A stretch of DNA of 64,000 nt from Haliscomenobacter hydrossis DSM 1100 (lineage in GTDB: Bacteria > Bacteroidota > Bacteroidia > Chitinophagales > Saprospiraceae). The stretch lies in contig NC_015510.1 in NCBI RefSeq assembly GCF_000212735.1, positions 4,651,001-4,715,000 of the forward strand, written 5' to 3'. A program made the translations under genes and the position numbers. Positions 26,558 to 53,213 of the stretch are shown piece by piece (the first letter of the stretch is position 1; each line of letters begins with the position of its first letter). The notes under the pieces were generated by a model. The model worked only from the letters and a program-made list of their open reading frames with translations. It was not told the origin of the DNA and did not search any database.

Positions 26558-28342
26558 TTAAGGTTTGATTACCTGCTGTTTTTCAATCGTCTCCATGTAC
26601 TCCTGCAAATAAGTCTCATAAATCGCCCGCGGATACACCTTGTATTTGTGGCAAAGCGCGGCCGCAAAACCCACCGCAGCACCCATTTGTCCGGTGGTAC
26701 GCATCACCCGCGGCCCGCCCAGTCCAATGTGCGAGCAACTGAAGCAACGCCCCGCCATAAACAGGTTGCTGATGTTTTGGGAGTACAAACTCCGATAGGG
26801 GATGTAGTAGCGGTTGGTTTTGTAAAACAAGGCTTTGGACAAAAAATCCGGGGTTTCCTCGGTTTGCAAATTCTGCTGAAAATGCACGTCGATCTCCCGT
26901 TTTTCCACTACTACCGAATCCGGAAATTGCGCATTGTTGACCACGTCTTTGAAAGTAAAAACATGGTCGCCCACCAGGCGTCGCGACTCCCGTTTGCCCA
27001 ACAAATACGAGACCCATTGCAGCTGGTATTTTTCGTTGCCCGCGACTTGTTTGGCATTGGAAAAGGAGCCGTAAATCGCTTTCAACAAGTGGTCGCGGAT
27101 CTCCTCACCGTCTTCAATCTGGTGGAGGTCGTTGCGCGAAAACTCCCAGTACCACTCGCCCGCGGTAGCCTTGTGGTCTTTGGCGATCTCTTTGGCCCAG
27201 GGCAATTGTGGAAAGGTTTGGGGCGTCTCGGCAATTTCCGTGCGCCATAAAATCGAGGAACCCATCACGAAGTTATCGGGTTCTTCAGGGCTCCAGAGTT
27301 CCCCCCATTCGTTCCAGGCTTCGCCGTATTTGTAGACACTTTCGCGGCCATAAGAATACAGGGCGCCCGCCCAAAAACCGATCCAGCCGTCACCCGTAGC
27401 GTCTACAAAGAGGGGCGCTTTGAAGCGGATACGTTTTCCGTTGGAGGTATGCTGGGCATCCACGTATTGAATCACCTGGCTGTCGGCCACGGCATTGTAA
27501 GCCCGCCAGTTGTAGTGGATGTCGATGTTTTTGTAGCGTTGTACGTTTTGGTCCCTTTTTTCCTGGTCTTTTTGCGCTTCCGGCGAGCCATTGGGGTAAT
27601 GTTCGGTGTCGATCATGCGCAGGATGCGTTCAAACTTGCCGTAAATGCCCAGGGTGTGGACGCGGATTTCACTGCTGGCGTTGCCTCCCAAAACGGGGCG
27701 GTCGTGAATCAAGGCGACTTTAAGTCCTTTTTCGGCGGCGGCAATGGCGGCGGCACAGCCCGAGAGACCACCACCGGTGACGACCAGATCGTAGGACTTG
27801 GTGGTTTCCGGAGACAGGGGTTCTTTCAGCTTCTTTTTGCGCCATTCGGCCAATTCTGGGCCTCCCACTGGCGGCTGTACTTTGACTTTGCTCAGATAAA
27901 TAGCGTCGCAGCGGGCATTGAACCCGGTGAGGTCGATCAGTTCGATGGACATTTCTTTGGAGGGCAGTACCACTTCGCCAGCGTATTCCCAGGTCCAGTT
28001 GGGGGTTTTGCCAAAAATAAAGTCCAGCGTTTTGCCGTTGATGGCCATCTTGAATTGGCCGGGGGCATCCCAGTTGCCGGGCGCCCAGTTTTTGGTTCTG
28101 GCCCAAAGGTGGTATTTGCCTTTGGCGGGCATGGCCACTTTGGTGGAGGCATTTTTGACGGGGGTGCCCATGCCGTGCGCCATCAGGTAAGTGGAGCCCA
28201 TTTGCTGGATGAACTGGGGGTCGGTGACCCAGTAGCCCTTGTCGATGAAGCTTTCGGCTTCAATGAGGGCGTCTTTTTGGGCAAAAGTCAAGAGGGGGAA
28301 CAATAACAAAATGAGTAGGCCAATTGGTTTTTTGCTTTTCAT
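26558..28342 (-). CDS. Secreted FAD-dependent oxidoreductase (PF12831-type)
   Basis: 594 residues from ATG 28342, which begins a signal peptide (MKSKKPIGLLILLLFPLLTF then AQ). Residues about 20-165 form a beta-rich module (ALIEAESFIDKGYWV, GKYHLWARTKNW, ELIDLTGFNARCDAIYLSK) like carbohydrate-associated domains. Then comes the FAD-binding Rossmann motif YDLVVTGGGLSGCAAAIAAA and LIHDRPVLGGNASSEIRVH. APLFVDATGDGWIGFWAG and NLFMAGRCFSCSHIGLGGPRVM are characteristic of the FAD_oxidored family. The substrate is unknown, probably a sugar or glycan-derived compound. It is paralogous to the gene at 53214 and shares an upstream cis-element with susC (39779-39886). Confidence 0.82.
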   Translation of the reverse strand: MKSKKPIGLLILLLFPLLTFAQKDALIEAESFIDKGYWVTDPQFIQQMGSTYLMAHGMGTPVKNASTKVAMPAKGKYHLWARTKNWAPGNWDAPGQFKMAINGKTLDFIFGKTPNWTWEYAGEVVLPSKEMSIELIDLTGFNARCDAIYLSKVKVQPPVGGPELAEWRKKKLKEPLSPETTKSYDLVVTGGGLSGCAAAIAAAEKGLKVALIHDRPVLGGNASSEIRVHTLGIYGKFERILRMIDTEHYPNGSPEAQKDQEKRDQNVQRYKNIDIHYNWRAYNAVADSQVIQYVDAQHTSNGKRIRFKAPLFVDATGDGWIGFWAGALYSYGRESVYKYGEAWNEWGELWSPEEPDNFVMGSSILWRTEIAETPQTFPQLPWAKEIAKDHKATAGEWYWEFSRNDLHQIEDGEEIRDHLLKAIYGSFSNAKQVAGNEKYQLQWVSYLLGKRESRRLVGDHVFTFKDVVNNAQFPDSVVVEKREIDVHFQQNLQTEETPDFLSKALFYKTNRYYIPYRSLYSQNISNLFMAGRCFSCSHIGLGGPRVMRTTGQMGAAVGFAAALCHKYKVYPRAIYETYLQEYMETIEKQQVIKP

Positions 28343-28636
28343 AGTCCGTTGAAAAAGTGGTGAAAAGATGAATGGGTGTAAAGAGCACGCCCGGATTGCT
28401 CGCCGCAAGGCTTCCAGATACCAAACCAATGATTTGGTTAAAAAGCACAATACTAGCGGATTTATTGACCGAAAATAAGGCGAGTTTCAAAATAATAAAT
28501 GGCATCAATTGGTCGGATCGAGAGAAAACCTATCGGGAACCTTCTCGAAACGGGTAGCGGTAGAGATTTTTGTTGAATAGGGTTGTCTAATAATTTAGTG
28601 TGTGTAAATTCTAAAGACTAAAGGAATCCAAAGTAC
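28343..28636. other. Upstream region of the FAD oxidoreductase
   Basis: Carries the bipartite element shared with the susC promoter (28456-28563). Apart from this nothing else is recognised. Confidence 0.6.
28456..28563 (-). promoter_or_regulatory. Bipartite cis-element, copy 1 (FAD oxidoreductase)
   Basis: Read on the minus strand, block A (28563-28530, 34 nt, containing CTACCCGTTTCGAGAAG and TTCCCGATAG) matches 39779-39812 at 32 of 34 positions. Then comes a 29-nt unrelated spacer, and block B (28500-28456, 45 nt, containing ATTATTTTGAAACT and TCAATAAATC) matches 39842-39886 at 38 of 45. Both copies point toward the following gene (ATG 28342, 113 bp away). Confidence 0.8.
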
Positions 28637-29650: not shown

Positions 29651-29697
29651 AGCCTATTATTTTCTTACCGATGCAGATCAAATGCACTGTAACTTTT

Positions 29698-29713
29698 TAC
29701 TTTTGCAAACGTA
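29698..29713. promoter_or_regulatory. Overlapping divergent -7 boxes forming a candidate WYL operator
   Basis: TACTTTTGCAAACGTA is a 16-bp inverted repeat with one mismatched pair (14 of 16 bases symmetric). Its left half TACTTTTG is a -7 box reading toward the retron RNA, and its right half, read on the minus strand as TACGTTTG, is the -7 box of the WYL gene. A dimeric regulator bound here would shut both promoters. Confidence 0.6.
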
Positions 29714-29736
29714 TTTACTAGGGAATTGGTTACAAA
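29706..29736 (-). promoter_or_regulatory. Promoter of the WYL regulator
   Basis: On the minus strand TTTG (29736-29733), 19 nt, then TACGTTTG (29713-29706): an exact match to the Bacteroidota TTTG-N19-21-TAnnTTTG promoter. The leader to ATG 29650 is about 50 nt. Confidence 0.7.
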
Positions 29737-29752
29737 TTCCTAATGATTCTTT

Positions 29753-29958: not shown

Positions 29959-29971
29959 TTATTTTTCCTTT

Positions 29972-32600: not shown

Positions 32601-32608
32601 AAGTTTTT

Positions 32609-38539: not shown

Positions 38540-39694
38540 TCACCCCTTTCGCATCGACGATTTCCGCACAATCAAGCGTGTAGCCAGCATCCGCTTCTCC
38601 ACCGTCGGCTGCTCCATCTGCTCCAACAACAGCCGCGCCGATTCCTCACCAATTTTCCACACGGGTTGTTCCACCGTGGTCAACGAAGGCTCAATGATGG
38701 CCGAAATGGGGTCATTGCTGAACCCCACTATGCCCAAATCCTGGGGAATGTTGATGCCCCGTTCCTTGGCGATTAGCATAATTTCAATGGCGCAAGGGTC
38801 ATTCACCGCAAAAATGGCATCCGGTGGCTGGGGCAGATCCAGCAATTGCCGAGTGCAAATTCGGGCGTGTTCCTCGGTCAAATCGTGGTACACGATCAAA
38901 TCCTGATCCAGCGGCAACTGATGTTTTTGCAAGGCATCAACATAGCCCTGCAAACGCAGCCGACTGACCTGCAAGGTGACCGGACCAGCCAGGTGCGCAA
39001 TGCGCCGATAGCCCTGTTCAATCAGGTGTTCCACGGCCTGGAATGCCCCTGAATAGTCGTCAATGATCACTTGCGGCGTATCCAGTTCGGGGCAAACGCG
39101 GTTGAAAAACACCAGGGGTATTTCCTTCTGCATGACCGTCCGGAAGTGATCAAAATTATCGGTTTTGGCGGTGATGGACACCAAAAGTCCATCCACGCGG
39201 CTCCGCAAAAGTGCTTTTACATTGGCCACTTCGGTTTCGTACGACTCATCCGACTGGCAAATCATGACATTGTACCCCGCCTTCGAAAGCACCTCTTGTG
39301 CCCCCATAATGAAGGTGGGAAAAAAGTAATGCCGAAACTCGGGCACCAGGATACCCACAATGTTGGTCTGGCGTTTCAAGAGGGCATTGGCCAAGGGATT
39401 GGGCTGATAATCAAGTTCTTGTGCCAAATCCAGAATCATCTTGCGCGTTCCTTCATGGATGTCGGCATGCCCACGCAGCGCCCGTGAAACCGTTGACTTG
39501 GAAATGCCCAACTGCTGGGCAAGATCCATGATGGTGACCTCGTGAGGGCGACGGTTTTCCTGGGGTACTGCCGTTTCGTTGATGGTAAAATGAAAATCAC
39601 AGGACTTGCAGTAGTAACGCTGCTTTCCCCTCATAATCCCGGATTTTTGGATGAACTCAATCTGATTGCACTTTTTACATTTGATCATTCCCAT
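38540..39694 (-). CDS. LacI-family regulator with fused N-terminal zinc ribbon
   Basis: 384 residues, about 45 more than usual. Residues 1-40 form a four-cysteine zinc ribbon (CKKC at 6-9, then YYCKSC at 27-32, with GKQRYYCKSCDFHF), similar to the N-terminal fingers of IS1/InsA-type transposase proteins. Then comes the LacI HTH (VTIMDLAQQLGISKSTVSRALRG at 53-75) and hinge (YQPNPLANAL). The periplasmic-binding-like core has NIVGILVPEFRHYFFP, GLLVSITAK, AGPVTLQVSRLRLQGY and GIVGFSNDPISAIIEPSLTTVEQP. Divergent from susC, it probably senses a sugar released by the adjacent polysaccharide locus and represses or activates it. Confidence 0.9.
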   Translation of the reverse strand: MGMIKCKKCNQIEFIQKSGIMRGKQRYYCKSCDFHFTINETAVPQENRRPHEVTIMDLAQQLGISKSTVSRALRGHADIHEGTRKMILDLAQELDYQPNPLANALLKRQTNIVGILVPEFRHYFFPTFIMGAQEVLSKAGYNVMICQSDESYETEVANVKALLRSRVDGLLVSITAKTDNFDHFRTVMQKEIPLVFFNRVCPELDTPQVIIDDYSGAFQAVEHLIEQGYRRIAHLAGPVTLQVSRLRLQGYVDALQKHQLPLDQDLIVYHDLTEEHARICTRQLLDLPQPPDAIFAVNDPCAIEIMLIAKERGINIPQDLGIVGFSNDPISAIIEPSLTTVEQPVWKIGEESARLLLEQMEQPTVEKRMLATRLIVRKSSMRKG

Positions 39695-39778: not shown

Positions 39779-39886
39779 CTATCGCTACCCGTTTCGAGAA
39801 GCTTCCCGATAGTTTTTGTGCAACACTGCTTGCTGGAAGCCATTAATTATTTTGAAACTGAGCTTAATTTCGATCAATAAATCTGC
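39779..39886 (+). promoter_or_regulatory. Bipartite cis-element, copy 2 (susC promoter region)
   Basis: Block A 39779-39812 and block B 39842-39886, separated by 29 nt, match the copy at 28563-28456 upstream of the FAD oxidoreductase (32/34 and 38/45) with the same spacing and same orientation to the gene. Block A is partly symmetric (CTATCG at one end, CGATAG at the other). It lies between the divergent LacI-type and susC genes, so it is a candidate operator. Confidence 0.8.
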
Positions 39887-39957: not shown

Positions 39958-42900
39958 ATGTCAGGCAAATTACAAATATGGCTTGTGTTTTTTGGTCTGC
40001 TGACCACCGCGCAAGCCCAGAACCTCTCCCTGCGGGGAAAAATATCCGATTCCAGCGGAGAAGCACTACCCGGCGCCAGTATCGCGGTAAAGGGCACAAC
40101 CAGTGGAGCTGTCTCTGAACTGGATGGCACCTACCAACTGGAGGGCGTTTCGGCGCAAGCCACGCTGGTTATTTCCTACACCGGGTACCTTAGTCAGGAG
40201 ATTGCGGTCAACAACCGCACCCTCATTGACGTAGTACTCAGCCTGGATGTGGAAGCACTCAATGAAGTGGTCGTGGTGGGTTATGGTACCCAGCGCAAAG
40301 CGGGTACTACGGGTTCCATTGCTTCGGTGAAAGCAGCCGACCTCGTCCAAACCCCTGTGGCCAACCTTGCCCAGGGGCTGCAAGCCCGGGTGTCGGGGAT
40401 TCAAATCAACCAAAACTCAGGATCGCCAGGGGGTAACGTCAGTGTGCGCATTCGGGGTACCAACTCCATCAATGGCACTTCGGAGCCATTGTACGTAGTG
40501 GATGGCATCCAGATTTCCAATGGAGGGGGCATCAATGATGTCAGCCCACTTTCAACCATTAACCCCAACGACATTGAGAGCATCGAAGTGCTCAAGGATG
40601 CCTCGGCCTCGGCCATTTATGGGGCCCGGGCAGCCAACGGGGTGGTCTTGATCACGACCAAACGGGGTAAATCCGGCGTGACCAGAGTCACTTTTGACAG
40701 CTACTACGGCACCCAAAAAGTGACCAAAACCATCCCTACCCTCAATGCGGCGCAGTTTGCCCAATTGGAAAATGAGGTGTTTAAAAATACCTACTACAAA
40801 GACCCGGCTTCTTTGGGTCAGGGGGTCAATTGGCAGGACATTATCTTCCGGGAAGCCCCGATCCAAAACCACCAATTGTCCGTCAACGGGGGCAACGAAA
40901 AGACCCAACTGGCCATGTCGCTCAATTATTTCAACCAGGACGGGGTCATCATCAGTTCCAATTTCAAACGGTATTCGTACCGTCTGAACCTCGACCACAA
41001 AATCAGCAAAAACGTCAAAGTGGGTACGAGTATGTTGGGTAGTTACTCGATCAACTCCGGAGTACAAACCGGCTCAACCAGTCAGGGCGACGGTGATGTG
41101 GTAGTCGGAAGTATTTTGGGTGCAGCCATTGGTGCACCACCCAACTTAAAACCTTACCGCGCTGACGGCACCATTTTCCCTTTCGGCGAACAAGAGGATG
41201 GTCGTTACCGCGAGGTAGCCAACCCCTTGGGTATTGCCTCGGTGTTGATCCAAACCGCCTTAAAAAGAACCTTGACCAATATTTACGGTGAAGTGAACAT
41301 CTTGAAGGGCCTTACCTATCGGGCTTCCTTTAACATCGATTTGCAGAGCAACACCGCCGATCGGTATTCTCCCCGCTCGATCGTTAGCATTCGGGATTTG
41401 AATGACAACTCCGGTTCGGGCTCAAAATCAAATTCGAATTTCACCGGCTTACTGCACGAGAGTATTTTGACTTATAGCCAAACCCTGGCTGAGGTACACA
41501 GCTTGAAGTTTACGGGGGTATTTGCTACTCAATCAGATTTGTCCAACGCCAACTCGATTAGTGCGTCGGGATTTCCCAATGATGCCACCCGCAACGAGGC
41601 CCTGCAATTGGCCCTCAACCGCACGGTGAGTAGCAGTCGCAGCAAACAACGCCTGGATTCATACATGGGCCGGATCAACTACGGCTTCAACGACAAGTAC
41701 TTCATCGATTTGACCGCCCGCGTCGACGGTTCCAGCCGTTTTGGGGCCGAAAACAAATATGGCTTTTTTCCGGCTGTTTCTGCCGCCTGGAGGATCATTC
41801 AAGAGCCTTTCCTGGACAATGCAAAATGGCTTTCTGACCTCAAAATCCGCGCCAGCTACGGTTTGACCGGGAATGCCGGGGGTATTTCGCCTTACCAATC
41901 GCTTAGTACAGTGGCTTCGGTGGGTAGCGATTACGTCTTCAACAATGCCTATATAACGGGGATCAACCCTACCGGGATTGCCAACCCGGCACTGCGCTGG
42001 GAAAAATCGACCCAAACCAACATTGGTCTGGACCTCGGTTTGTGGGACAATCGCCTGAGCCTGGTGGTAGATGTGTACAATAAAAAAACCGACGACCTGC
42101 TGTACATCAAAACCCTGCCCCTCAGTTCCGGTTATGGCAGCATCACGGGCAACTATGCCTCTCTGGAAAACCGGGGAATTGAATTCGCGGCCAATGCCCG
42201 TATTCTGCAAGGAAAGATCAAGTGGAATGTAGCCGCTAATGTAACCATGAACCGCAACAAGGTCTTGGATCTGGATGGAGGTACAACTGCCGAACGTTTC
42301 ATCACCAGTTATACGGTGCTGAAAGTGGGTCAACCCTTGGGTTTGATCAAATCTTTTGTTTTTGATGGCATCAATCAATCTGGTGAGACCATTCTGCCCG
42401 GTTATGATGGCCGTTTGGGTGGGCACAAAATCAAAGACCTGAATGGAGATGGCACCATTAGTTCCCTGGATCAAATTATTACCGGCGATCCCAATCCAGA
42501 CCTCATTTTTGGTTTTTCTACCAATGTTTCTTTCAAAGGGTTTGATGTGAGCACCTTCTGGTCGGGAACCCAGGGCAACGACATTTACAACCTGAGCCGT
42601 TTGTCTTTTGAAAACCCACTGGGGCAACGCAACCTGTTTAAGGTCGTAGAAAACCGCTGGACTCCAACCAACCCCAGCAATCAATACGTGAGCCCGGCAC
42701 AAGGTGGCCGCTTACCCGTGAGTGATTATTATGTGGAGGATGGTTCTTACATCCGCTGCAAAAACATCACCCTGGGTTACACCGTAACCAGCATCAAAGG
42801 CATCCAAAACCTGCGGGTATACGTGAGTGGCAACAACCTGATCACCATTACCGACTACACTGGTTTTGACCCCGAAGTCAATACTTTTGCGGGGTCCAAC

Positions 42901-42975
42901 ACGGTAATCGGGATCGACAACCTGGTGTATCCACAAGCGCGCTCAATCCTGGGTGGAATTCAAGTCACTTTTTAA
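39958..42975 (+). CDS. SusC/RagA-family TonB-linked outer-membrane protein
   Basis: 1005 residues with signal peptide (MSGKLQIWLVFFGLLTTAQAQ). A carboxypeptidase-like regulatory domain follows (LRGKISDSSGEALPGASIAVKGT...), then EVVVVGYGTQRKAGTTGSIASV as TonB box region and plug (VSGIQINQNSGSPGGNVSVRIRG, PLYVVDGIQI, IESIEVLKDASASAIYGARAANG). The rest is a 22-strand barrel of about 800 residues, with the SusC-type ending (SYIRCKNITLGYTV, LRVYVSGNNLITITDYTGFDPE) and a terminal phenylalanine. It imports oligosaccharides across the outer membrane with TonB energy, together with the SusD partner directly downstream. Confidence 0.96.
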   Translation: MSGKLQIWLVFFGLLTTAQAQNLSLRGKISDSSGEALPGASIAVKGTTSGAVSELDGTYQLEGVSAQATLVISYTGYLSQEIAVNNRTLIDVVLSLDVEALNEVVVVGYGTQRKAGTTGSIASVKAADLVQTPVANLAQGLQARVSGIQINQNSGSPGGNVSVRIRGTNSINGTSEPLYVVDGIQISNGGGINDVSPLSTINPNDIESIEVLKDASASAIYGARAANGVVLITTKRGKSGVTRVTFDSYYGTQKVTKTIPTLNAAQFAQLENEVFKNTYYKDPASLGQGVNWQDIIFREAPIQNHQLSVNGGNEKTQLAMSLNYFNQDGVIISSNFKRYSYRLNLDHKISKNVKVGTSMLGSYSINSGVQTGSTSQGDGDVVVGSILGAAIGAPPNLKPYRADGTIFPFGEQEDGRYREVANPLGIASVLIQTALKRTLTNIYGEVNILKGLTYRASFNIDLQSNTADRYSPRSIVSIRDLNDNSGSGSKSNSNFTGLLHESILTYSQTLAEVHSLKFTGVFATQSDLSNANSISASGFPNDATRNEALQLALNRTVSSSRSKQRLDSYMGRINYGFNDKYFIDLTARVDGSSRFGAENKYGFFPAVSAAWRIIQEPFLDNAKWLSDLKIRASYGLTGNAGGISPYQSLSTVASVGSDYVFNNAYITGINPTGIANPALRWEKSTQTNIGLDLGLWDNRLSLVVDVYNKKTDDLLYIKTLPLSSGYGSITGNYASLENRGIEFAANARILQGKIKWNVAANVTMNRNKVLDLDGGTTAERFITSYTVLKVGQPLGLIKSFVFDGINQSGETILPGYDGRLGGHKIKDLNGDGTISSLDQIITGDPNPDLIFGFSTNVSFKGFDVSTFWSGTQGNDIYNLSRLSFENPLGQRNLFKVVENRWTPTNPSNQYVSPAQGGRLPVSDYYVEDGSYIRCKNITLGYTVTSIKGIQNLRVYVSGNNLITITDYTGFDPEVNTFAGSNTVIGIDNLVYPQARSILGGIQVTF

Positions 42976-42987: not shown

Positions 42988-44487
42988 ATGCGAAACAACA
43001 TGCGAAATTACCATAAACTCATTGGCTTGTGTTTGGCTTTTGCCCTGCTGAACACCTCCTGTGAACTGGAAGAAACCATTTATTCTTCCATTTACACCGA
43101 AGCTTTTTACAAAACCGCTGCCGACGCCGAAAAAGGCCTGGTCGCCGTATATGATCCCCTGGCAGACCTGTGTTCCGGCCCGGCGCTGACTTTGGTTTCA
43201 GATTTTAGCGCCGACCAATGTTACCCCCGTGCCGTAGTAGGTCGCAATACCTTGACCTTGTTTGAATACGACGCCAACTACACCACCCAACGGACGGCCG
43301 GGCGGACCAACGAGTCACCACAGCAAATCTGGATTTCTTGCTACGACGGCATTGAAAAAGCCAACTGGATCATCGCCAAAGTACCCGATGCAATCATGGA
43401 TGCAACCCGTAAAGGACAAATCATCGGCGAGGCTTATTTTTTGCGGGCATATTACCTCTGGACCTTGACCAAAACCTTTGGGGATGTGCCGATCAAAACG
43501 ATGCCCAGCACCTCGGAGGAAGAGGCCATCGTGGGCAAAAGCCCCAAGGCCGATGTGTACAAACAGATTTACAGTGACCTGGATCAGGCTACGTCCGCTG
43601 GCTTGTTGTCATATCCAAGTGTAGAAAAAGGTCGGCCCTCCAAAGAAGTCGTCAGTGCCTTGTATGCCAAGGCCGCCCTGTACAACGAAGATTGGCAAAA
43701 AGCCTTACAAAAAGCCCAGGAAGTGATTAGCTCCGGCAAATACAGCCTGATGCCCGATGTACGCGATGTGTACCGCTACGACAAAGAAGACGCGGCGCGG
43801 ATCGAAAACATGTGGGCTTTTGAATCAGCACCCATCTCTCCTGGTAGAGGACATCAATTGTCGGGTTTGTGTGGCCCGACGGGCAGTGCAGGGGTTGATT
43901 ATTCCCGCAACTCGTTTGGTTCCATGTTCGCGTACCAAACTTTTTACGATTCCTTTGATCCCAAAGACAAGCGCCGCTTGTTGCTGGATACCACTTATGT
44001 CAATCGCGCTGGTGCCACCGTTCCGCAACGCAGCATTACCCCCATTACCACCAAAGGGGTATTGATCAAAAAATACCAAGATCCCATCTCTACAATCGGG
44101 TTGATCAACAACATTCCGCTGTTCAGATTGCCCGACATGTACCTGATTGCCGCCGAAGCGGAGGCACGCCTCAATGGCGCTTCGGCTAATGCCTATGGTT
44201 TTGTCAATGTCATCCGCAAACGGGCGGGTTTGGATGATCTGGCTGCCGGACTAAGCAAAGAGGCTTTCATCAATGCGGTAATCCAGGAACGCGCTTGGGA
44301 GTTTTTTGCCGAAGGCGATCGTTGGTATGACCTTACCCGCACCGGAACATTTCTTGCGGTAGTACCCAAGGCGGTGAACAACGTATATCCTGTACGTAAC
44401 CCTACTGCCAAGAACAAGTACTTCCCGATTCCGCAAGACGAGATCAACGCCAACCCTAAAATTGAGCAGAATCCAGATTGGAAATAA
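42988..44487 (+). CDS. SusD/RagB-family outer-membrane lipoprotein
   Basis: 499 residues with a lipoprotein signal ending in LLNTSCELEE (lipobox cysteine near residue 26). SusD features are: FYKTAADAEKGLVAVYDPLAD, GEAYFLRAYYLWTLTKTFGDVPIKTMPS, the TPR-like KASVVSALYAKAALYNEDWQKALQKAQEVIS-type helices and LFRLPDMYLIAAEAEARLNG. It ends with ERAWEFFAEGDRWYDLTRTGTF and PIPQDEINANPKIEQNPDW. It is the glycan-capturing lid of the SusC pore. It follows susC by 12 bp and is succeeded by a strong terminator. Confidence 0.96.
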   Translation: MRNNMRNYHKLIGLCLAFALLNTSCELEETIYSSIYTEAFYKTAADAEKGLVAVYDPLADLCSGPALTLVSDFSADQCYPRAVVGRNTLTLFEYDANYTTQRTAGRTNESPQQIWISCYDGIEKANWIIAKVPDAIMDATRKGQIIGEAYFLRAYYLWTLTKTFGDVPIKTMPSTSEEEAIVGKSPKADVYKQIYSDLDQATSAGLLSYPSVEKGRPSKEVVSALYAKAALYNEDWQKALQKAQEVISSGKYSLMPDVRDVYRYDKEDAARIENMWAFESAPISPGRGHQLSGLCGPTGSAGVDYSRNSFGSMFAYQTFYDSFDPKDKRRLLLDTTYVNRAGATVPQRSITPITTKGVLIKKYQDPISTIGLINNIPLFRLPDMYLIAAEAEARLNGASANAYGFVNVIRKRAGLDDLAAGLSKEAFINAVIQERAWEFFAEGDRWYDLTRTGTFLAVVPKAVNNVYPVRNPTAKNKYFPIPQDEINANPKIEQNPDWK

Positions 44488-44502
44488 GTATAATATTCAT
44501 GT

Positions 44503-44538
44503 CCCCGGTAAAGTCTAATGTTTTACCGGGGCTTTTTT
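44503..44538 (+). terminator. Strong intrinsic terminator between susD and the enzymes
   Basis: CCCCGGTAAA (44503-44512) and TTTACCGGGG (44522-44531) form a perfect 10-bp stem with a 9-nt loop, followed by C and six T. The next gene starts only 7 bp later in the same direction, so this probably attenuates rather than ends the operon. Confidence 0.85.
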
Positions 44539-44544
44539 CACCCA

Positions 44545-46452
44545 ATGAGCGCAATTCACACCTTAGTTTTTCTGCTTGTAGGCCTCGTGGCCTTCTCCCA
44601 AAACAAACCTTTGGTCAATCAAGCGGGATACAACCTGGGCGAAGCCAAACGGTTCGTTTGTGTAGGTGCCAAAGACGGCACCAAATTTAAAGTCCTCAAC
44701 AACACCAGCAATAAGCTTGAGTTCGAGGGCGAAATACTGAATCAGGAAGGCTGGTTTACGGCCTTTAATCCAGTCACCAAAAACGAATTCCGCATTGAAG
44801 TAGCAGAGCACGGTACTTCCGTCCCTTTTTGGATTGCCGACCATTTGATGGAAAAAATATCGGCCAAACTAGCCTACGATTTTTTCATCGATGTACGTGG
44901 TTCCGAAGACGCCACTATCGCGGATTTGAGTAAAATCTACGGCGGCGGCCCCTCCCGCGATGGCGGAGCTTATGGCCTGGAAACCGTTTTTGAATGCCTG
45001 TACTACGCCTCCAATCCCGCACTATTTGATCGCTGGAAAGGGGAATTTGGCGACGATAAAGTGCCGGATTTGATCGACCTGATCCTCTGGCATGCCGAGT
45101 TTGCCTATGCCCATGTCGCCTACCAAGGCCCCGTGGCCAATCGGCACGGCAGCCTGGGCTACGAGGGCCAACCTAGGATGCAGTACGATTATTGGAATCA
45201 CCTGGACCAACTGGCAGTGGTTTGTGCGGCTTACCACGATTTTTTAAAACCTTACCTGTCACGCGAAAAATACCTCCAGTACCGCCAGATTTGCAACGAA
45301 AAATGGCTGGAGTACGAACGCCACAAAGTAGTGCGCTACTGGACCTACAGCACCAAATGGGTGGACATCGGGTTTCAGGAATTCAACGAAATGGGCAATG
45401 CCTATGGGCAGTCGGTATTCAGCAACCTGTTCATGTATTATTGTGAAAAAAACGAGCCCCAGGGCAACCCGGGGAAATACCTCAAATGGGCGCAGGAAAG
45501 TGCAAGCGACATCATCCAGAACTGGGACTTCAACAACCCACGCCACATGTGGTGGATTCGCAATGCTGAGCACATCACGCCGCAAGCCCTGGCTTATTTC
45601 CTACTCCTTGCTCCCGAACAGGCCCCCAAAGGAACACGTGAAAAACTGAGCGCATGGGCCATCCACATGCAACAAAAAACCAATAATTTTTGGAAATACC
45701 GGGTACACAGTGACACGGAATGGGCGCACCCCAAAACCAAAGAACTAGGCGGAGCACCGGCGCTCGGTGGATCGATGTTTGCGGTAGCACACTTGCTGAA
45801 GAATAAACGCTTGCGCGACATCGGGTGGGCACAGGTGGATTTCGTCTTTGGGATAAACCCCCTGGGCGCGCATTTGAGCAACAAAAGCCAGGATCGTTTG
45901 GATATTGGCGGCTACTGGGCTGGGGTTGAACAAGGTTGGCCCGCCGCACACCCCAATGGCTACGGGCAATTGGGTAAAGCGCGCGGCACCCTGGATGGCT
46001 CACCGCTGGACAAGGATTTTCAGAAAAAAGCGAGCGAAGCTGCTGGACAAGAACCCCAAGACCAGATTGGCAAGGATGCCTACGCCACCGAAGGCTGGTG
46101 TGTGTCCAATCGAGGCTGGATGGCCACCTTGACCTTTTCTACTTTGGGTAGCCAACAGGTCAAAATTTTGAACACCCGTGGCACCGCCATCACCCAGGCC
46201 AAAGTTGCTGAAACCGTGACCATTGAACTAAAAGCTGCGTTGAACCTGGATTGGGATCAGGTAGAAAAAGGTAAGGTTTGGGTGAAAGTGGATCAAAAAC
46301 CCGCGATTGCTCTTGAAGTGACGGAAACTGGCGAAAATACCGGCATTTTTAGGGCCAACTACAAAGTGCCCAGCCCTGGACGTTCCTTGCAAGTTAGCTA
46401 CGGCTCTTTTGGATTTGCCCAAAAAGCCAGCATCAATATAAAGGCACTGTAA
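44545..46452 (+). CDS. Glycoside hydrolase family 9-like enzyme
   Basis: 635 residues from ATG 44545, which gives a signal peptide (MSAIHTLVFLLVGLVAFSQ). A cellulase-type Ig-like module comes first (PLVNQAGYNLGEAKRFVCVGA). It is followed by the (alpha/alpha)6 barrel: SRDGGAYGLETVFECLYYASNP, VPDLIDLILWHAEFAY, AHVAYQGPV and QALAYFLLLAP. DFVFGINPLGAHLSN and TEGWCVSNRGWMATL are typical GH9 C-terminal elements. The acidic catalytic residues are not placed with confidence, and the usual D-A-G-D motif is replaced by a D-G-G segment, so the substrate may not be cellulose. A C-terminal Ig-like tail is present from about residue 555. It is secreted or surface-bound and part of the locus starting with susC. 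Confidence 0.72.
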   Translation: MSAIHTLVFLLVGLVAFSQNKPLVNQAGYNLGEAKRFVCVGAKDGTKFKVLNNTSNKLEFEGEILNQEGWFTAFNPVTKNEFRIEVAEHGTSVPFWIADHLMEKISAKLAYDFFIDVRGSEDATIADLSKIYGGGPSRDGGAYGLETVFECLYYASNPALFDRWKGEFGDDKVPDLIDLILWHAEFAYAHVAYQGPVANRHGSLGYEGQPRMQYDYWNHLDQLAVVCAAYHDFLKPYLSREKYLQYRQICNEKWLEYERHKVVRYWTYSTKWVDIGFQEFNEMGNAYGQSVFSNLFMYYCEKNEPQGNPGKYLKWAQESASDIIQNWDFNNPRHMWWIRNAEHITPQALAYFLLLAPEQAPKGTREKLSAWAIHMQQKTNNFWKYRVHSDTEWAHPKTKELGGAPALGGSMFAVAHLLKNKRLRDIGWAQVDFVFGINPLGAHLSNKSQDRLDIGGYWAGVEQGWPAAHPNGYGQLGKARGTLDGSPLDKDFQKKASEAAGQEPQDQIGKDAYATEGWCVSNRGWMATLTFSTLGSQQVKILNTRGTAITQAKVAETVTIELKAALNLDWDQVEKGKVWVKVDQKPAIALEVTETGENTGIFRANYKVPSPGRSLQVSYGSFGFAQKASINIKAL

Positions 46453-46472
46453 GCAAACAAAAAGCAGTAGAC

Positions 46473-48980
46473 ATGAAATTTTTATTCTCATTTTTGTTCA
46501 GCAGCATGATCCTGTGCCTCGCGGCGCAAACGCCGCAGGTGCTCAACCTGGCCAATGCCAATCTACGCCTGCGTTGGGAAAACAGCGGATCGGGCTGGCG
46601 CATCAAAACCATTGCCGTTAAAAAAGGCCAGACCTGGGTCAACCTGGAGCAGCCCTCAGGAGAACACACTTTACTGTACAGTGCCGAAAAGCCCAAAACG
46701 GAACCCGATTCCACCTTCAAAAGCATCACCGGGCAAAAATTCCCCGAAGACCTTTACCATTACCAACAAAAGATTTGGGCGGAAAGCATCAACCCGGTTT
46801 CCCTCAACACCGCCGGGCAGGCGCTGCATTTTTTTGCGCAAAAAGGGCAGCAAATTGAGCCCAATCAACTGCGTTTTGAGCAAACAACCGAGCAAGGCAT
46901 CTTGGTGGCCGAATGGAAGTTTGACCCCAAGTTTCCCAACGACATCCTCCTGACTCAAACCCTCAAAGTAAAAAAAGACGGCTACTACTCTTTGGCCACG
47001 CCGAGTTTGGCCAACATCAGCGAAAGCAACCTGGCCTGGGCTTCAGTGCCGGGCTATTTTCATGGGAATGCCATTCAACCCAACTTTGCCTTATCCTACG
47101 CTTATGGGCATGGGGTGCCTGCATTACCCGTGGTTTACCGCGAACGTTCGGCCAGCACACTGGCTCCGTTGGTCAGTACCAAAACTGGACTGACCCTGGC
47201 CCTGATTGCCGACCCCAGCCTGTGCCGCGATCCCTGGGCCAAAGACAAAAACACGCTCCACGACTGGAATATTGGCCTTTCGCACAAAAACCGCAAGGCG
47301 CAGTTGTCGCCTACACTGTACTATCCCGTTTTGGACGAGCCTAAATCTTTGCTGAAAGCTGGTGAAGAAATCACCTACACCTCCCGCTATCACCTTGGCC
47401 CTGGCGATTGGTTTCAGGCCATCAAACACGCGGCCTATGATGTGTACCAGCTCAAATCTGCCCTGGCCTTGCGCCAAAGCAAACAATCCCTGACCAGTCG
47501 CATCCAACAAATGCACCACTACCTGACCGATCCACAAACTTCGCTATGGAACATTGAAGAATTTCAGGGGCGAAAAATTGGGGCGCAGTCCTACCTCGGC
47601 GGGGTAGTGGGTTCGAACAAAGACGCCATGAAAAACTCCGATTACGGTGCCATGTGGATGCTGGCAAATGCGACTCGGGACACTTTGCTGACCAAAAATG
47701 TACTGCCCTACGCGCTCAATTTCAAATTTGTGCAACAAATCAGCGAGCCCGGTTTTTTCAACGGCTCGCTCGCCGGACAATATTATCTGGCCAAAAGCAA
47801 AAAATTCGTAGAAGAATGGGGCGAGGTGGTAGAGCCCATCGCCGTGACCTATTACACCATGCTCGACATTGGCAACATCCTGCTTTTTGAACCCAACAAC
47901 GCCGAATTGAAAGCGCGGCTACGCGCCGGGGCAGAGTGGTTACTGAAAAACCAAAAGCCCGATGGCAGTTGGGTCGTAGCCTACGACCGCAAAAACGAAG
48001 CGGAATTGTACAAAGACATCAAGGATTTGCGGGCTACTTTTTACGGTTTGATTGTGGCTTACCGCATTTTAAAAGACCAGAGATACCTGGTTGCTGCGCA
48101 AAAGGGAGCAGATTGGTTGTTGCAGTCCGCCGTAGCTAAGGGGAGCTACCTGGGCGTATGTGGGGATGCGCGTTACGCCCCCGATTTTGCCACGGCGCAA
48201 ACCGCTCAGGCATTTCTGGATCTTTTTGACCTGACCCAACAAGCAAAATATAAAACTGCTGCCATCAGTGCGGCCAAGGTATACACGACTTCCATTTATA
48301 CCCATCCCATTCCTACTACTGCTGCTAAAACCGTAAATGGAGTGGAGCGACAGGACTGGGAGATTGCCCAGTATGGACTCAACTTTGAACACGGCGGGAT
48401 TTTTGGCTCTTCCAATATCCATGGGCCGATTCAATTGTGCAGCCACGCGGGTTTGTTCATCCGCATGTACCAATTGACCAAAGAGCCCATCTTCGCCGAT
48501 CTGGCGCGAGCGGGTGCCTGGGGCCGCGATGCTTTTGTGGATGCCAAAACCAGTGTCGCTTCTTATTATTGGAACGCGATGAACCGGGGCGCCGGGCCAT
48601 ATCCACACCACGCCTGGTGGCAAATTGGCTGGTTGACCGACTACCTGATGGCCGAAGCGGAATTGCGTTCGAATGGGCAGGTGCGTTTTCCCCGGGGCTT
48701 TGTAACCCCAAAAGTGGGACCACACCAGTCCTACGGTTTTGCGCCTGGCATCATCAATGGGCAAAAAGCGCAGCTGATTGTGGATGAAAACCTGGTCAAA
48801 GTGGATCATCCGGCGATTGATTACATTCTGGCGATTACTGAAAAAAAGGACAAAATCTTTGTGGTTTTGCTCAATAACCGGGCGCAGGCGACGGATTTTC
48901 AAATCAGCATCAAGGGCGCTGCGGCAAAGGCCAAGCAGTTGCCAGCACTAGGTTTTGAAATCCTGACGATTGTACTTTGA
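46473..48980 (+). CDS. Secreted six-hairpin glycosidase-like protein
   Basis: 835 residues with signal peptide (MKFLFSFLFSSMILCLAAQ). The first ~330 residues are beta-rich (LNLANANLRLRWENSGSGWRI, QTLKVKKDGYYSLATPS). The centre and end form an (alpha/alpha) toroid: SDYGAMWMLANATRDTLL, RAGAEWLLKNQKPDGSWVVAYDRKN, DWLLQSAVAKGSYLGVCGDARYAPDFATAQTAQAFL and YPHHAWWQIGWLTDYLMAEAELR. This is the shape of six-hairpin glycosidases and polysaccharide lyases. I cannot name a CAZy family or catalytic residue. It follows the GH9-like gene by 20 bp and so belongs to the same enzyme set. Confidence 0.6.
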   Translation: MKFLFSFLFSSMILCLAAQTPQVLNLANANLRLRWENSGSGWRIKTIAVKKGQTWVNLEQPSGEHTLLYSAEKPKTEPDSTFKSITGQKFPEDLYHYQQKIWAESINPVSLNTAGQALHFFAQKGQQIEPNQLRFEQTTEQGILVAEWKFDPKFPNDILLTQTLKVKKDGYYSLATPSLANISESNLAWASVPGYFHGNAIQPNFALSYAYGHGVPALPVVYRERSASTLAPLVSTKTGLTLALIADPSLCRDPWAKDKNTLHDWNIGLSHKNRKAQLSPTLYYPVLDEPKSLLKAGEEITYTSRYHLGPGDWFQAIKHAAYDVYQLKSALALRQSKQSLTSRIQQMHHYLTDPQTSLWNIEEFQGRKIGAQSYLGGVVGSNKDAMKNSDYGAMWMLANATRDTLLTKNVLPYALNFKFVQQISEPGFFNGSLAGQYYLAKSKKFVEEWGEVVEPIAVTYYTMLDIGNILLFEPNNAELKARLRAGAEWLLKNQKPDGSWVVAYDRKNEAELYKDIKDLRATFYGLIVAYRILKDQRYLVAAQKGADWLLQSAVAKGSYLGVCGDARYAPDFATAQTAQAFLDLFDLTQQAKYKTAAISAAKVYTTSIYTHPIPTTAAKTVNGVERQDWEIAQYGLNFEHGGIFGSSNIHGPIQLCSHAGLFIRMYQLTKEPIFADLARAGAWGRDAFVDAKTSVASYYWNAMNRGAGPYPHHAWWQIGWLTDYLMAEAELRSNGQVRFPRGFVTPKVGPHQSYGFAPGIINGQKAQLIVDENLVKVDHPAIDYILAITEKKDKIFVVLLNNRAQATDFQISIKGAAAKAKQLPALGFEILTIVL

Positions 48981-48994
48981 CGCCTGCGGCGTGG

Positions 48995-49272
48995 AGCGAC
49001 TTAATGGGAACGCAGATGACGCGGATTGGGCGGATTTACGCGGATATTGGGGCTGTATCATAAGGTCGAAAAATGATAAAATTCAAAAATTCAGTCATTT
49101 TTTAGGGTCTAAAAAAAAGCTGAGTAAATAATTGAATAAATCAGCATGTTTTAAAATTGCCTACTTATGATACAGCCCCTTTTGATTGTTAGTCTGCTCA
49201 TGCCGAAGGCGTGAGCCCTTATCCGCGTAAATCCGCTTAATCCGCGTCATCTGCGTTCCCATTAATGTCGCT
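48995..49272. repeat. Large inverted repeat of GCGGATT words, ~52-nt arms
   Basis: 48995-49046 and 49220-49272 are near-perfect inverted copies (AGCGAC, GGGAACGCAGATGACGCGGA and GCGGATTTACGCGGAT words). The loop is interrupted by a 131-bp element with its own terminal inverted repeats. It lies between two genes read in the same direction. Confidence 0.88.
49049..49179. mobile_element. MITE-like element with 16-bp terminal inverted repeats
   Basis: Perfect TIRs GGGGCTGTATCATAAG (49049-49064) and its complement (49164-49179) enclose 99 bp of AT-rich non-coding DNA. GGGGCTGT ends resemble those of several IS families (for example IS1182-type). No transposase. Only TT is shared by the flanks, so target duplication is unclear. 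Confidence 0.65.
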
Positions 49273-49363
49273 TTAGAAAAATGTGCGCAGCACAAAAACC
49301 TTATATTCGTCGTGCTGAATTACCCCGCAGCGAAGCTGCACCAAAAACAAGCTTTACAAACTC

Positions 49364-51076
49364 ATGTTGAACGCCTACATCGATACCGCCGTCATTTTTA
49401 TCTTCTCTGCCTTTGTGTTGGGAATTGGCTTGCTTTTTGCACGCACTGGCCGCAACCTCAAATCTTTTTTTGCCGGAGGCGAAGCGGTGCCCTGGTTCAT
49501 CGGCGGGCTGTCCCTGTTCATGTCCTTTTTTTCGGCGGGCACCTTTGTAGCCTGGGGTTCCATTGCCTACAAACACGGTTGGGTAGCGGTCACCATCCAA
49601 TGGACGATGTGCCTGGGTGCTTTGGTAACGGGTTTGTTCCTGTCGCCCCGCTGGCGGGCTACGGGCAACCTCACGGCTGCCGAGTTCATTCGCGAGAGAC
49701 TGGGCGAAAACGTGCAGAAGTTTTACATCGGCATTTTCACGCTGGTATCGGTTTTTATCAAAGGTTCGGTGTTGTACCCAGTGGCCAAACTGGTGAGTGT
49801 ATCGCTGGGTTATCCACTGTTTGAGTCCACGATTGTACTGGGTTTGTTCATGATTTCCTACACGGCGGTGGGTGGATTGTGGGCGGTCATGGTGACCGAT
49901 ATCCTGCAATTTGTGATCCTGACGGCGGCGGTATTCATTTTGCTGCCCCTTTCGCTGGGTCAGGTGGGTGGATTTGCCAACTTTACGCAGCAGGTTCCCG
50001 ACGATTTTTTTAACCTCCTCAACGGGGAATATACCTTGGGTTTTGTGCTGGCTTTTGTGCTGTACCACATTGCCTACATTGGCGGCAACTGGACCTTTGT
50101 GCAGCGCTACACCAGCGTAGACAGCCCCAAATCCGCCCGCAAAGTGGCCTTTCTTTTTGCAGGCTTGTACCTGATCAGTCCGATGATCTGGATGTTGCCC
50201 CCGATGATTTATCGGGCCATCAATCCTGATTTGACCGGGCTGGATACCGAAAATGCCTACTTGTTGATTTGCCAAAAAGTATTGCCTCCGGGCTTGCTGG
50301 GGCTGATGCTTACGGGCATGTATTTTTCTACTTCGGCCAGTGCGAACACAACCTTGAACGTGGTTTCGGCGGTATTCACCAACGACATTTATAAAGGGTT
50401 TGTCAAGCCGGATGCATCCGACAGGCAACTGATCCGGGTAGCCAGGCTGTCTTCATGGGGCTTCGGGCTGGGCATGATTGGCATCGCTCTGCTGGTGCCA
50501 GCGGCCGGGGGGATTGTGGAAGTAGTGCTGAGCATTTCGGCCATCTCGGGTGGTCCTTTATTGGCGCCGCCGCTTTGGGCGCTGTTTTCCAAACGGCTCA
50601 ATGGCAAAACCACCTTTTGGATTACGGTGATTGGCCTCTCGGTCAACCTGTTTTTCAAAATCCTGTCGCCAATGTTGCTCGACTTCAAGTTGAGTCGTGC
50701 GCTGGAAACGATCATCGGCATTGGCCTGCCCTTGCTGCTGCTGTTGGCCTACGAGCTTTATGCTCGTTCCAAAAACCTGACTGCGATAGAATACTTGCGG
50801 TACACCCACACGAAAGCCCAGCGCATTGCCGATGCGCTGGAAGCCAATCCTGCGGAAGCCCTCGAAATCAAAAAGCAAAACCGCTACGGCATGCAGGTGA
50901 TTGCTGGTGCCCTGGTTTTTGTGGCCATGATTCTGCTGATTTTGAGTTTTTTGACCAGCTCGGGAGGGCTGGTGACTCGGATCATTTCGATGGTGATTTT
51001 GCTGGGGGCGATCATTCCCTGGCAGGCAGCGCGGAAGATTCAAATTGAAAATATCGCCCATGAACCTAAGCTCTAA
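49364..51076 (+). CDS. Sodium:solute symporter (SSS family)
   Basis: 570 residues, about 13 membrane helices. SSS features are: FFAGGEAVPWFIGGLSLFMSFFSAGTFVAWGSIAYKHGW in TM1-2, AAEFIRERLGENVQKFY, VGGLWAVMVTDILQFVIL and LTGMYFSTSASANTTLNVVSAVFTNDIYKGF. The last contains the TM8 serine/threonine residues that bind sodium. It transports a sugar, sugar acid or amino-sugar across the inner membrane. It lies between the six-hairpin enzyme and GH2, so it probably carries the released mono- or disaccharide. The stop lies 10 bp before the GH2 start. Confidence 0.92.
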   Translation: MLNAYIDTAVIFIFSAFVLGIGLLFARTGRNLKSFFAGGEAVPWFIGGLSLFMSFFSAGTFVAWGSIAYKHGWVAVTIQWTMCLGALVTGLFLSPRWRATGNLTAAEFIRERLGENVQKFYIGIFTLVSVFIKGSVLYPVAKLVSVSLGYPLFESTIVLGLFMISYTAVGGLWAVMVTDILQFVILTAAVFILLPLSLGQVGGFANFTQQVPDDFFNLLNGEYTLGFVLAFVLYHIAYIGGNWTFVQRYTSVDSPKSARKVAFLFAGLYLISPMIWMLPPMIYRAINPDLTGLDTENAYLLICQKVLPPGLLGLMLTGMYFSTSASANTTLNVVSAVFTNDIYKGFVKPDASDRQLIRVARLSSWGFGLGMIGIALLVPAAGGIVEVVLSISAISGGPLLAPPLWALFSKRLNGKTTFWITVIGLSVNLFFKILSPMLLDFKLSRALETIIGIGLPLLLLLAYELYARSKNLTAIEYLRYTHTKAQRIADALEANPAEALEIKKQNRYGMQVIAGALVFVAMILLILSFLTSSGGLVTRIISMVILLGAIIPWQAARKIQIENIAHEPKL

Positions 51077-51086
51077 TCCAAATACC

Positions 51087-53096
51087 ATGCGACTGATTGG
51101 CTTCTTTTTATTGTTATCCATCACCAGTTTTGCCCAGTTTACCCTGCGGCAACCCGATGCCATTCCCTTGCATGGCCAATGGGCTTTTGCGCTGGATACC
51201 CGGGAGGTGGGGGAAGCACGGGGTTGGTACCAGGAGACTTTTGCCACCAATGGTTGGGATCAGGTCACGGTACCCCATTGTTTTTCGGTTGACCCACGGT
51301 ATCAGTTTTATACCGGGACGGTTTGGTACCGGAAGAGTTTTCCCTGGCAACCCCAGGCGGGCAAACGCGTCTTGCTACATTTCGACGCGGCGTATTACGC
51401 TGCCACCATTTGGCTCAACAACCAAAAAGTGGGTAGCCACGAAGGTGGATATACGCCTTTCCATTTTGACGTCACTAAGCTGCTCAAGGCTGGCGACAAC
51501 TTTTTGTCCATCTCTATCAACAACGACACCTGGCAAGTCGGCTCTATTCCAGGAGCCAAAGACAACGGCAATCCCAACGACCCCTTCACGGGCTGGATGA
51601 ATTACGGCGGACTCAACCGCCCGGTTTATTTGACCGTCGAACCGGAAATGTACCTGGAAAACCTCAAAGTAGAGGCAATGCCTGATTTGGTCAAAGGGAC
51701 GGCCCTTTTACGGGTCAAAGCCCGGGTGCGCAACGCCTCGGCGCAAAGCAGTATTGCCAAAATCAATCCACTGGTTTCGTTCGGAAACCAGCAACTCAAG
51801 TTGACTTGGAAGGCTGGTTCGGCCACCATTGCTGCTGGACAAACCGCAGTGGTAGAAGCCGAAGTCAGCCTCAAAACCACCGAAGTCAAACTTTGGAACC
51901 TCGACGATCCCAATTTGTACCAACTCAAAGTGGGTTTGGGGGCAGATACCCTGAGTAGCGCATTTGGCATCCGCAAACTGGAAGTCCAGAACGCCCAATT
52001 GCTGCTCAACGGCGTGCCGATCCGCGTGGGCGGCGGCAACCGCGTGGTGGACTATCCTGGCCAGGGGGCCCTGGAACCAGACTGGTTGGTAGAAAAAGAT
52101 TTCCGTCTGATGAAAGAAGCCGGGATGGAATTTCAACGCCTGACCCATTACCCGCCCAGCGAAAGTTTTTACGATTGGGCCGACCGCTACGGCATGTTGA
52201 TCATTACAGAGCCGGGTAATTGGCAACTTACGCCGCGCCATATGGACAATGACACCTTCCGCCGCAAGTTTCAACAACAATTCCGCGAGATGATGGAACG
52301 CGACTGGAATCACCCCAGCGTAATCGCCTACAGCGTGGGCAATGAATACCTGTCGGAAACACCCGCTGGTCAGCGCTGGACCAAGGACATGATTGCCTAT
52401 GGCCGGAGCCTTGACGCCACCCGTTTGTACACTTTTGCCAGCATGCGCCTCAATATTTTGCCGCAAAAACCGGAAGACGAAGCCAGTCAATACTGTGATT
52501 TTGTGTGCACCAATACCTACGGCGGACACGCCAAAGCGCTGGATCACATCCACAAATTGTATCCCGACAAACCCATCCTGATCAGCGAGTGGGGCATCCG
52601 CGCCGACAATGCTGCCGGTGAAGCCGGGCAAGTGACCCACTTTGAAAATGTTATGGCGGAAATCCGCAAACGCCCCTACGTAGTGGGCGCGGCTTGGTGG
52701 ACCTACAATGATTACCAAAGCCGCTACGTGGGCACCAATCCTAATGGTTACCGCCCCTGGGGTTTGGTTGGCCCAGATCGCAGTCCCCGGCAACTCTATG
52801 CGGCGCACCGCCGTGAAATGGCCCCCTTGACCCTGGAAAAAATAAGTTTCCAGGCAGGTGGGCAAGGGCAACACGAACTGATTGTAAGGGTGAGTGCCCG
52901 CAACGATTTCCCGGCTTATCCCCTGAAAGGTTACACCTTCAAAACCAAAGATGCCAGCGTAAAAATTCCCGATTTACAACCCGGACAAAGCACCGAAGTC
53001 AAAATCCCGGTACGGGGTTTTGACAAAAGCCTCAAACTGGAAATCTGGAAAGCGACGGGCTTCTCGGTACTGAACGAAAATTTTGAATTGAAATAA
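51087..53096 (+). CDS. Glycoside hydrolase family 2 (beta-galactosidase/glucuronidase type)
   Basis: 669 residues from ATG 51087, which gives signal peptide MRLIGFFLLLSITSFAQ; an ATG at 51060 is possible but lacks a good signal. The GH2 order is seen: jelly-roll domain (HGQWAFALDTREVG, TVWYRKSFPW, WLNNQKVGSHEGGYTPFHFDVT), an Ig-like domain ending in AFGIRKLEV and a TIM barrel. The acid/base glutamate lies in YSVGNEYLSE (about residue 417) and the nucleophile in ILISEWGIRA (about 499). It cleaves terminal beta-linked sugars (galactose, glucuronate or mannose) in the periplasm. Confidence 0.93.
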   Translation: MRLIGFFLLLSITSFAQFTLRQPDAIPLHGQWAFALDTREVGEARGWYQETFATNGWDQVTVPHCFSVDPRYQFYTGTVWYRKSFPWQPQAGKRVLLHFDAAYYAATIWLNNQKVGSHEGGYTPFHFDVTKLLKAGDNFLSISINNDTWQVGSIPGAKDNGNPNDPFTGWMNYGGLNRPVYLTVEPEMYLENLKVEAMPDLVKGTALLRVKARVRNASAQSSIAKINPLVSFGNQQLKLTWKAGSATIAAGQTAVVEAEVSLKTTEVKLWNLDDPNLYQLKVGLGADTLSSAFGIRKLEVQNAQLLLNGVPIRVGGGNRVVDYPGQGALEPDWLVEKDFRLMKEAGMEFQRLTHYPPSESFYDWADRYGMLIITEPGNWQLTPRHMDNDTFRRKFQQQFREMMERDWNHPSVIAYSVGNEYLSETPAGQRWTKDMIAYGRSLDATRLYTFASMRLNILPQKPEDEASQYCDFVCTNTYGGHAKALDHIHKLYPDKPILISEWGIRADNAAGEAGQVTHFENVMAEIRKRPYVVGAAWWTYNDYQSRYVGTNPNGYRPWGLVGPDRSPRQLYAAHRREMAPLTLEKISFQAGGQGQHELIVRVSARNDFPAYPLKGYTFKTKDASVKIPDLQPGQSTEVKIPVRGFDKSLKLEIWKATGFSVLNENFELK

Positions 53097-53105
53097 CCAT
53101 TGTAT

Positions 53106-53205
53106 GAGTTGAGAAAGTTGAGGGAGGTTGAGAAGGTTTAGGCTACCGCAGTTGCTTAGACGTAGCCTTCTCAACCTCCTCAACCTCCTCAACCTCCTCA
53201 ACTAC
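53106..53205. repeat. Intra-operon inverted repeat of GTTGAGG words
   Basis: Left arm 53106-53146 (GTTGAGAAAGTTGAGGGAGG start) and right arm 53162-53205 (GTAGCCTTCTCAACCTCCTC start) pair over about 40 nt around a 15-nt loop. It lies between GH2 and the FAD oxidoreductase. Confidence 0.85.
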
Positions 53206-53213
53206 TTAAGATC

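Follow-up and report, generated by a model that had tools for sequence, protein, structure and literature searches.

Results

Genes and features at the locus

The window, by which we mean the whole 64,000-nt stretch of Haliscomenobacter hydrossis DSM 1100 analysed here (GCF_000212735.1, NC_015510.1, forward-strand positions 4,651,001-4,715,000), holds a PUL whose first gene, susC (39958..42975, +; domain search), is followed by susD and the genes for a CelD_N protein, an 835-aa protein, an SSF symporter, a GH2 and FAD oxidoreductase 2 (42988..55532, +), which would form one transcript. Only weak hints toward the PUL substrate came from the 835-aa protein. FAD oxidoreductase 2 (53214-55532) belongs to PF12831, the same Pfam family as FAD oxidoreductase 1 (26558..28342, -; domain search), whose start is more probably the ATG at 28342 (MKSKKPIG...) than the TTG at 28450. 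Domain and sequence searches identified a LacI-type regulator with an N-terminal zinc ribbon (CxxC...CxxC) at 38540..39694 (-), divergent from susC. The interval from FAD oxidoreductase 1 to the LacI gene (28637-38537) carries WYL, reverse transcriptase (RT)/HisKin-conflict, response-regulator, TOTE-type helicase and DUF7017/TOTE genes, likely a conflict system; an EAD11/NACHT protein (14328-16571) and a SocA/Panacea-type antitoxin domain (56876-57454) are likewise likely of the defence type.

Two copies of a bipartite element

A bipartite element occurs twice, 11 kb apart: copy 1 (28563-28456, -) upstream of FAD oxidoreductase 1, and copy 2 (39779-39886, +) between susC and the divergent LacI gene, each pointing toward its gene, the orientation that the first-pass annotation had given. 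Its counts were also reproduced on our recount, with 32/34 identities in block 1, 38/45 in block 2, and a 29-nt gap in both copies; only its description of this spacer as unrelated proved slightly too strong, since 13/29 positions are identical. Aligned over 108 nt without gaps, the copies agree at 83/108 positions, and the next best place for either copy on both strands of the window reaches 48/108; the two look homologous, with a diverged spacer.

Patterns built on the cores of the two blocks, allowing 3 mismatches at most, gave 2 matches each, where shuffles predict 0.02 and 0.00. No further copy was found in the genome (8,771,651 bases, 4 contigs): a 24-nt core searched at the same tolerance gave 2 matches against 0 in the backwards control, and blastn of the whole genome returned the two copies (E 8e-59 and 9e-17) followed by 17 matches with E 0.9 or worse. 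Among 398 genomes of the family, near-full-length matches were confined to the genome holding the window (G000; two) and to G003, G004 and G300, each with one at the blastn level; in 22 further family genomes with E of 0.01 or less, the matches span at most 41 nt of the 123-nt query. Searching a wider contig collection with a 21-nt core gave 5 matches, all inspected: three are the elements of G003, G004 and G300, and the remaining two, one of them inside an ORF that we take to be gltX-like, stand alone, with nothing else of the element around them, and appear to be chance matches.

We also weighed whether the element might be a dispersed repeat, the end of a mobile element, an RNA leader or a terminator. 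Its outer arms (CTATCG/CGATAG) are complementary and are followed by TTTT in five aligned copies, as such readings would have it; however, copies at many random sites, which the first-pass annotation had named as the mark of a dispersed repeat, were looked for in this genome and its relatives and not found, the counts above being two here and one in each of three relatives. There was, moreover, no Rfam match in the window, folding z-scores were -1.0 and +0.66, and no terminator-like site lay at copy 1. We regard these readings as scarcely credible.

The surroundings of the element differ among the relatives. G300 keeps the gene order found here, with an FAD oxidoreductase cut by the contig end, the element, WYL, RT and part of the LacI gene, all 97-99% identical to the window genes except for the RT at 88%. 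No match to WYL or RT was obtained in the 19-kb stretches around the LacI genes of G003 and G004, nor to susC, susD or CelD_N in the 19-kb stretch of G004 (L047). In this last stretch the predicted operator-promoter immediately precedes the 835-aa gene.

Block 1 resembles a LacI operator and co-occurs with the zinc-ribbon LacI

The most plausible reading of block 1 is as the operator of the neighbouring zinc-ribbon LacI-type protein, the binder that the first-pass annotation had proposed and that both the half-sites and their distribution support at the level of sequence. In copy 2, the predicted 34-bp LacI operator (39779..39812, +) has half-sites at 39779-39789 and 39802-39812 with 12 nt (39790-39801) between them, and in copy 1 (28530..28563, -) the half-sites lie at 28563-28553 and 28540-28530. 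The block contains TTTCGAGAASSTTCCCGATA, which resembles both TTTCGGAAACGTTCCCGATA of the paralogue L083 and GGGAAYRTTCCC, found upstream of sister LacI genes that have no ribbon and whose recognition helix is nearly the same (SKSTVSR[AV]L). The half-site CGGGAA/TTCCCG recurs upstream of other LacI genes, including that paralogue in this genome, where the centre of TTTCGGAAACGTTCCCGATA lies 111 nt from the matched start of the LacI gene, as compared with 107 nt for the operator here. More widely, from a family set of 94 LacI loci (92 with a DNA-binding domain), an operator-like palindrome with a score of at least 7 was found upstream in 62/92, for example ATGCAAACGTTTGCAT, TTGCGCAAGCGCTTGCGCAA and AACGTAAACGTTTACGTT.

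Zero-mismatch GRGAASSTTCCCGATAG sites in the five genomes of the genus were limited to susC and FAD oxidoreductase 1 in G000, the same two genes in G003, and the LacI/835-aa locus in G004; G001 (86% complete) and G002 had no such site and, at best identities of 39-42%, no LacI closely orthologous to this one. The perfect cores are thereby confined to genomes with a close orthologue. In G003, FAD oxidoreductase 1 lies on another contig from susC and the element is not conserved beyond the core (a single palindrome only, with a loose box at 53), so its core provides separate support for the oxidoreductase as a member of the regulon. Because the full element is missing there, copy 1 may have arisen by capture of a duplicated susC promoter. 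Candidates for further members were rejected: a 17-nt core with up to 2 mismatches gave 30 sites in the five genomes vs 21 in the backwards control, of the 21 loci checked for context, which carried one or two mismatches or stood at FAD oxidoreductase 1, many fell within ORFs, and the five sites with a single mismatch (GGGAACGTTCCCGATAA; in G001, G003 and G004) look like the operators of another LacI.

Since, as the L083 paralogue demonstrates, similar half-sites serve other LacI proteins of this genome, block 1 could also be read by a different regulator and lie next to the LacI gene by accident. We hold this to be very improbable, given that the sites and this LacI occur together in G000, G003 and G004 and are both missing from G001 and G002, and that zinc-ribbon LacI genes of another family have the same layout alongside.

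The zinc ribbon is accompanied by a 34-bp operator layout

The best models for the ribbon were the zinc domains of IS1/IS1595 and IS256, all below cut-offs. Such a ribbon is present in 6/92 family LacI loci, and a search with the first 112 residues over 386 genomes of the order and 394 genomes of another family (f20) added 15 loci (L204-L209, L220-L228) to those known; none was found in viral contigs. The first of the new loci suggested a 34-bp consensus, CTATCGnnnAC - 12 nt - GTnnnCGATAG, and only L220-L228 were unseen when this layout was proposed, from which L225 was dropped for want of upstream DNA.

When site lengths of 22-50 were scanned, 34 gave the best mean score in the suggesting set (14.0; next 13.08 at 22) as well as in the held-out set (12.5; next 11.62 at 22), and it was not the best in ribbon-less LacI loci (9.67 vs 10.22). 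At a score of at least 13, the layout was found at 11/12 suggesting loci, 5/8 testable held-out loci and 0/9 ribbon-less loci. The five held-out sites (L222, L223, L224, L226 and L228) each scored above the best of 100 shuffles, and the layout was absent from the held-out L220, L221 and L227. The one suggesting locus that departs from the layout, L081, has its half-sites separated by 22 nt. In L205, L206, L222 and L223, a 22-bp site ties with or beats the 34-bp site; these ties fit overlapping sites, but they also show that these loci do contain 22-bp sites. Positions 3, 9, 11, 17, 26 and 33 do not vary across 14 chosen sites.

In the arrangement that we propose, the two inverted 11-nt half-sites of block 1 with 12 nt between them would amount to a pair of LacI-type centres spaced 12 bp apart, with overlapping inner half-sites. 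Of the two halves of block 1, the left bears a weak likeness to a half-site (P ~0.01 in copy 2, ~0.03 in copy 1 and 0.12 in G300). The dimer centres at 39795/39796 and 39801/39802 each have some support, and a single dimer at the former instead of the latter was dropped as an alternative, the composite 34-bp site spanning both. The central CG pair usual in LacI operators does not occur at centre 2, which is GG, GC or CC in the five aligned copies; at zinc-ribbon sites, G follows centre 2 in 12/14 and C precedes it in 11/14. Palindromes whose central pair differs from CG are given for 49 regulators in the excerpted text of Ravcheev et al. 2014 (PMC4052901).

Ribbon-less sisters whose recognition helix is almost the same (L211-L218 without L214) carry two GGGAAYRTTCCC-like sites 19-20 bp apart in 7/7 cases, one of the two being imperfect in L213 and L218. 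A FastTree phylogeny of the LacI part (one run, 56/57 proteins, L228 being too short) did not place the ribbon-bearing proteins in one group (group 2 split 1.0; group 1 plus ribbon-less sisters 0.937), and the 34-bp site occurs in both ribbon-bearing groups. L210 and L068 are one and the same gene, and L065 is a near-copy of L210. Separately, we noted that L079, a LacI without a zinc ribbon, has upstream a nearly perfect 34-bp palindrome (16/17 pairs).

Block 2 resembles a promoter at fixed distances from the operator

Sigma-A promoters of Bacteroidota have a -7 box, TAnnTTTG, at -12 to -5 (PMC9723704, as excerpted). By its sequence, block 2 appears to be mainly a core promoter with a -7 box of this type, TANNTTCG, one base off TAnnTTTG and present in both copies, in G003 and G004 and, by alignment, in G300. 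In copy 2 (predicted core promoter 39842..39886, +) the box is TAATTTCG at 39865-39872, and in copy 1 (28456..28500, -) it is TATTTTCG at 28477-28470; if the placement in PMC9723704 is carried over, transcription would start near 39877 and near 28465, respectively. The -33 TTG lies 19 nt upstream in G003 and G004 and is replaced by TTA in copy 2 and TTT in copy 1. A sigma-70 promoter at copy 1 was rejected: the one consensus match is on the other strand, and 0.9 would be expected by chance. Within block 2 (39842-39886; 28500-28456), TTATTTTGAAACT, immediately 5' of the -7 box, is as conserved as the box itself, and a core promoter does not explain it; the motif GAAANT-N6-ANTTTC within block 2 could be a further site.

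The first-pass annotation had read the element as two sites under selection at fixed geometry, and the constant position of the box in block 2 points the same way: in both window copies, and also in G003 and G004, the distance from the second operator centre to the start of TANNTTCG is 63 nt. Among the remaining zinc-ribbon sites, the start of a loose box (TA..[AT]T) falls at 51-52 in 8 loci and at 62-63 in L207, L209, L210 and L228. Where the box is of the stricter type, a TTG stands 16-23 nt upstream in G003, G004 and L205. Overall, a box start at 51, 52, 62 or 63 nt from the second centre was found in 16/16 sites, several of them close relatives (shuffle mean 1.34, largest 5 in 500 shuffles; loose box, positions chosen after looking), and other offsets reach 8 at most, except for the overlapping offset 52 (13). 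Stricter boxes at those positions were less frequent (TA..[AT]T[TC]G in 9/16 and TA..TT[TC]G in 4/16). These 16 sites exclude L220, L221, L225 and L227 (no 34-bp site or no upstream DNA), L081 (22 nt between half-sites), L065 and G300; in L081, TATTTTTG lies 74 nt from the first centre and 52 nt from the second. The spacers themselves are diverged, with pairwise identities of 14-48% among ten loci apart from two pairs at 62 and 83%.

We also examined the LacI family as a whole. Helical phasing of operator-box distances over all family LacI operators was looked for and not seen. With bins set after looking, and with 36/92 loci counted in 25 clusters (L055-L171), TANNTTYG boxes lay 10-30 nt from operator centres in 4/25 clusters (0.57 expected) and 50-80 nt away in 7/25 clusters (0.92 expected), one of the latter being the LacI described here. 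These two classes suggest that the family contains repressor-like and activator-like LacI proteins.

Discussion

We reasoned that the element is probably the operator-plus-promoter module of a small local regulon, in which the zinc-ribbon LacI would bind the 34-bp block 1 and block 2 would supply the promoter, with its -7 box TANNTTCG and a -33 TTG that is weak or missing. The LacI-type protein would probably sense a sugar released by the PUL, and would switch the susC operon and FAD oxidoreductase 1 together. The pairing of zinc-ribbon LacI proteins with such enzymes appears to recur outside the genus, because the LacI genes of L207 and L209 stand divergently to genes for FAD oxidoreductases that share 75% and 73% identity with FAD oxidoreductase 2 of the PUL.

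As to how the switch would operate, LacI-family proteins are most often known as repressors, and the same operator and binder could act by classical repression, with either a promoter beside block 1 (the TAGKTTTT right of the operator) being covered or a loop being formed to a second site until the sugar releases the protein. The TAGKTTTT is present in all five aligned copies, and the enrichment of boxes 10-30 nt from operator centres in the family (given above) is as expected of repressor sites; however, TAGKTTTT lacks the final G of TAnnTTTG, is not preceded by a TTG at the usual spacing and has its TTTT changed to AAAA at FAD oxidoreductase 1 of G003, whereas the box of block 2 is kept at a constant distance in distant loci with diverged spacers. 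We consider repression unlikely and lean modestly toward the LacI-type protein being an activator that contacts RNA polymerase rather than a blocker of the promoter, a preference that follows from geometry, because the two distances lie 11 bp apart (one helical turn) over a free spacer sequence. With the -12 to -5 placement of PMC9723704, the second operator centre would sit at about -64 or -75 relative to the predicted start.

Class I activators, CRP among them, bind upstream of the promoter with their sites centred at a set of discrete distances that step by one helical turn. The module described here resembles them in its discrete distances, and the fixed helical phase to the promoter was found at every site with the loose box and at fewer with the stricter ones, at positions chosen after looking; the regulator here is LacI-type, and activation is read from geometry alone. 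Local sugar regulons of the LacI family, as excerpted from PMC4052901, are alike in that an inverted-repeat site stands beside the regulator gene and is common to a few co-regulated operons. Compared with those sites, the one here is 34 bp long with centres 12 bp apart and degenerate inner half-sites, the regulator has an N-terminal zinc ribbon, and the promoter box stands at two fixed distances. The predicted LacI regulons of Bacteroides (KdgR, UxaR, UxmR and UxuR; PMC3878776) likewise comprise LacI-type regulators of carbohydrate genes in the phylum; those serve monosaccharide/uronate pathways, however, and the excerpted text mentions neither a zinc ribbon nor a 34-bp site. Block 2, in turn, resembles the sigma-A promoter of PMC9723704, as excerpted, in TANNTTCG and in the TTG 19 nt upstream in G003 and G004, but departs from it in that TTTG is changed to TTCG, both window copies lack the TTG, and the stretch between the TTG position and the box is itself conserved.

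Zinc-ribbon LacI proteins may even be a distinct kind of regulator, in which the transposase-like ribbon resets the two DNA-reading heads, such that they bind a 34-bp split operator with half-sites 12 bp further apart than in an ordinary operator and activate via RNA polymerase from two positions one helical turn apart. We advance this only tentatively and think it somewhat doubtful as a whole. What appears to be new here is the zinc-ribbon-linked 34-bp operator with phased promoter spacing. No description of a zinc-ribbon LacI regulator was found among the open-access papers listed for it, which does not show it to be unpublished, and the full-text matches for Saprospiraceae together with a LacI regulator were, judging by their excerpts, community or ecology studies.

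For a polysaccharide locus of the Saprospiraceae, the regulator, operator, promoter and two targets would make up a control circuit that is complete and testable. The 34-bp layout also bears on a point left open in PMC4052901, where, as excerpted, overlapping sites ~13 bp apart are described upstream of 110 operons, namely how LacI dimers use sites ~13 bp apart with overlapping contact zones, and it suggests that LacI operator geometry can shift when a domain is added to the protein.
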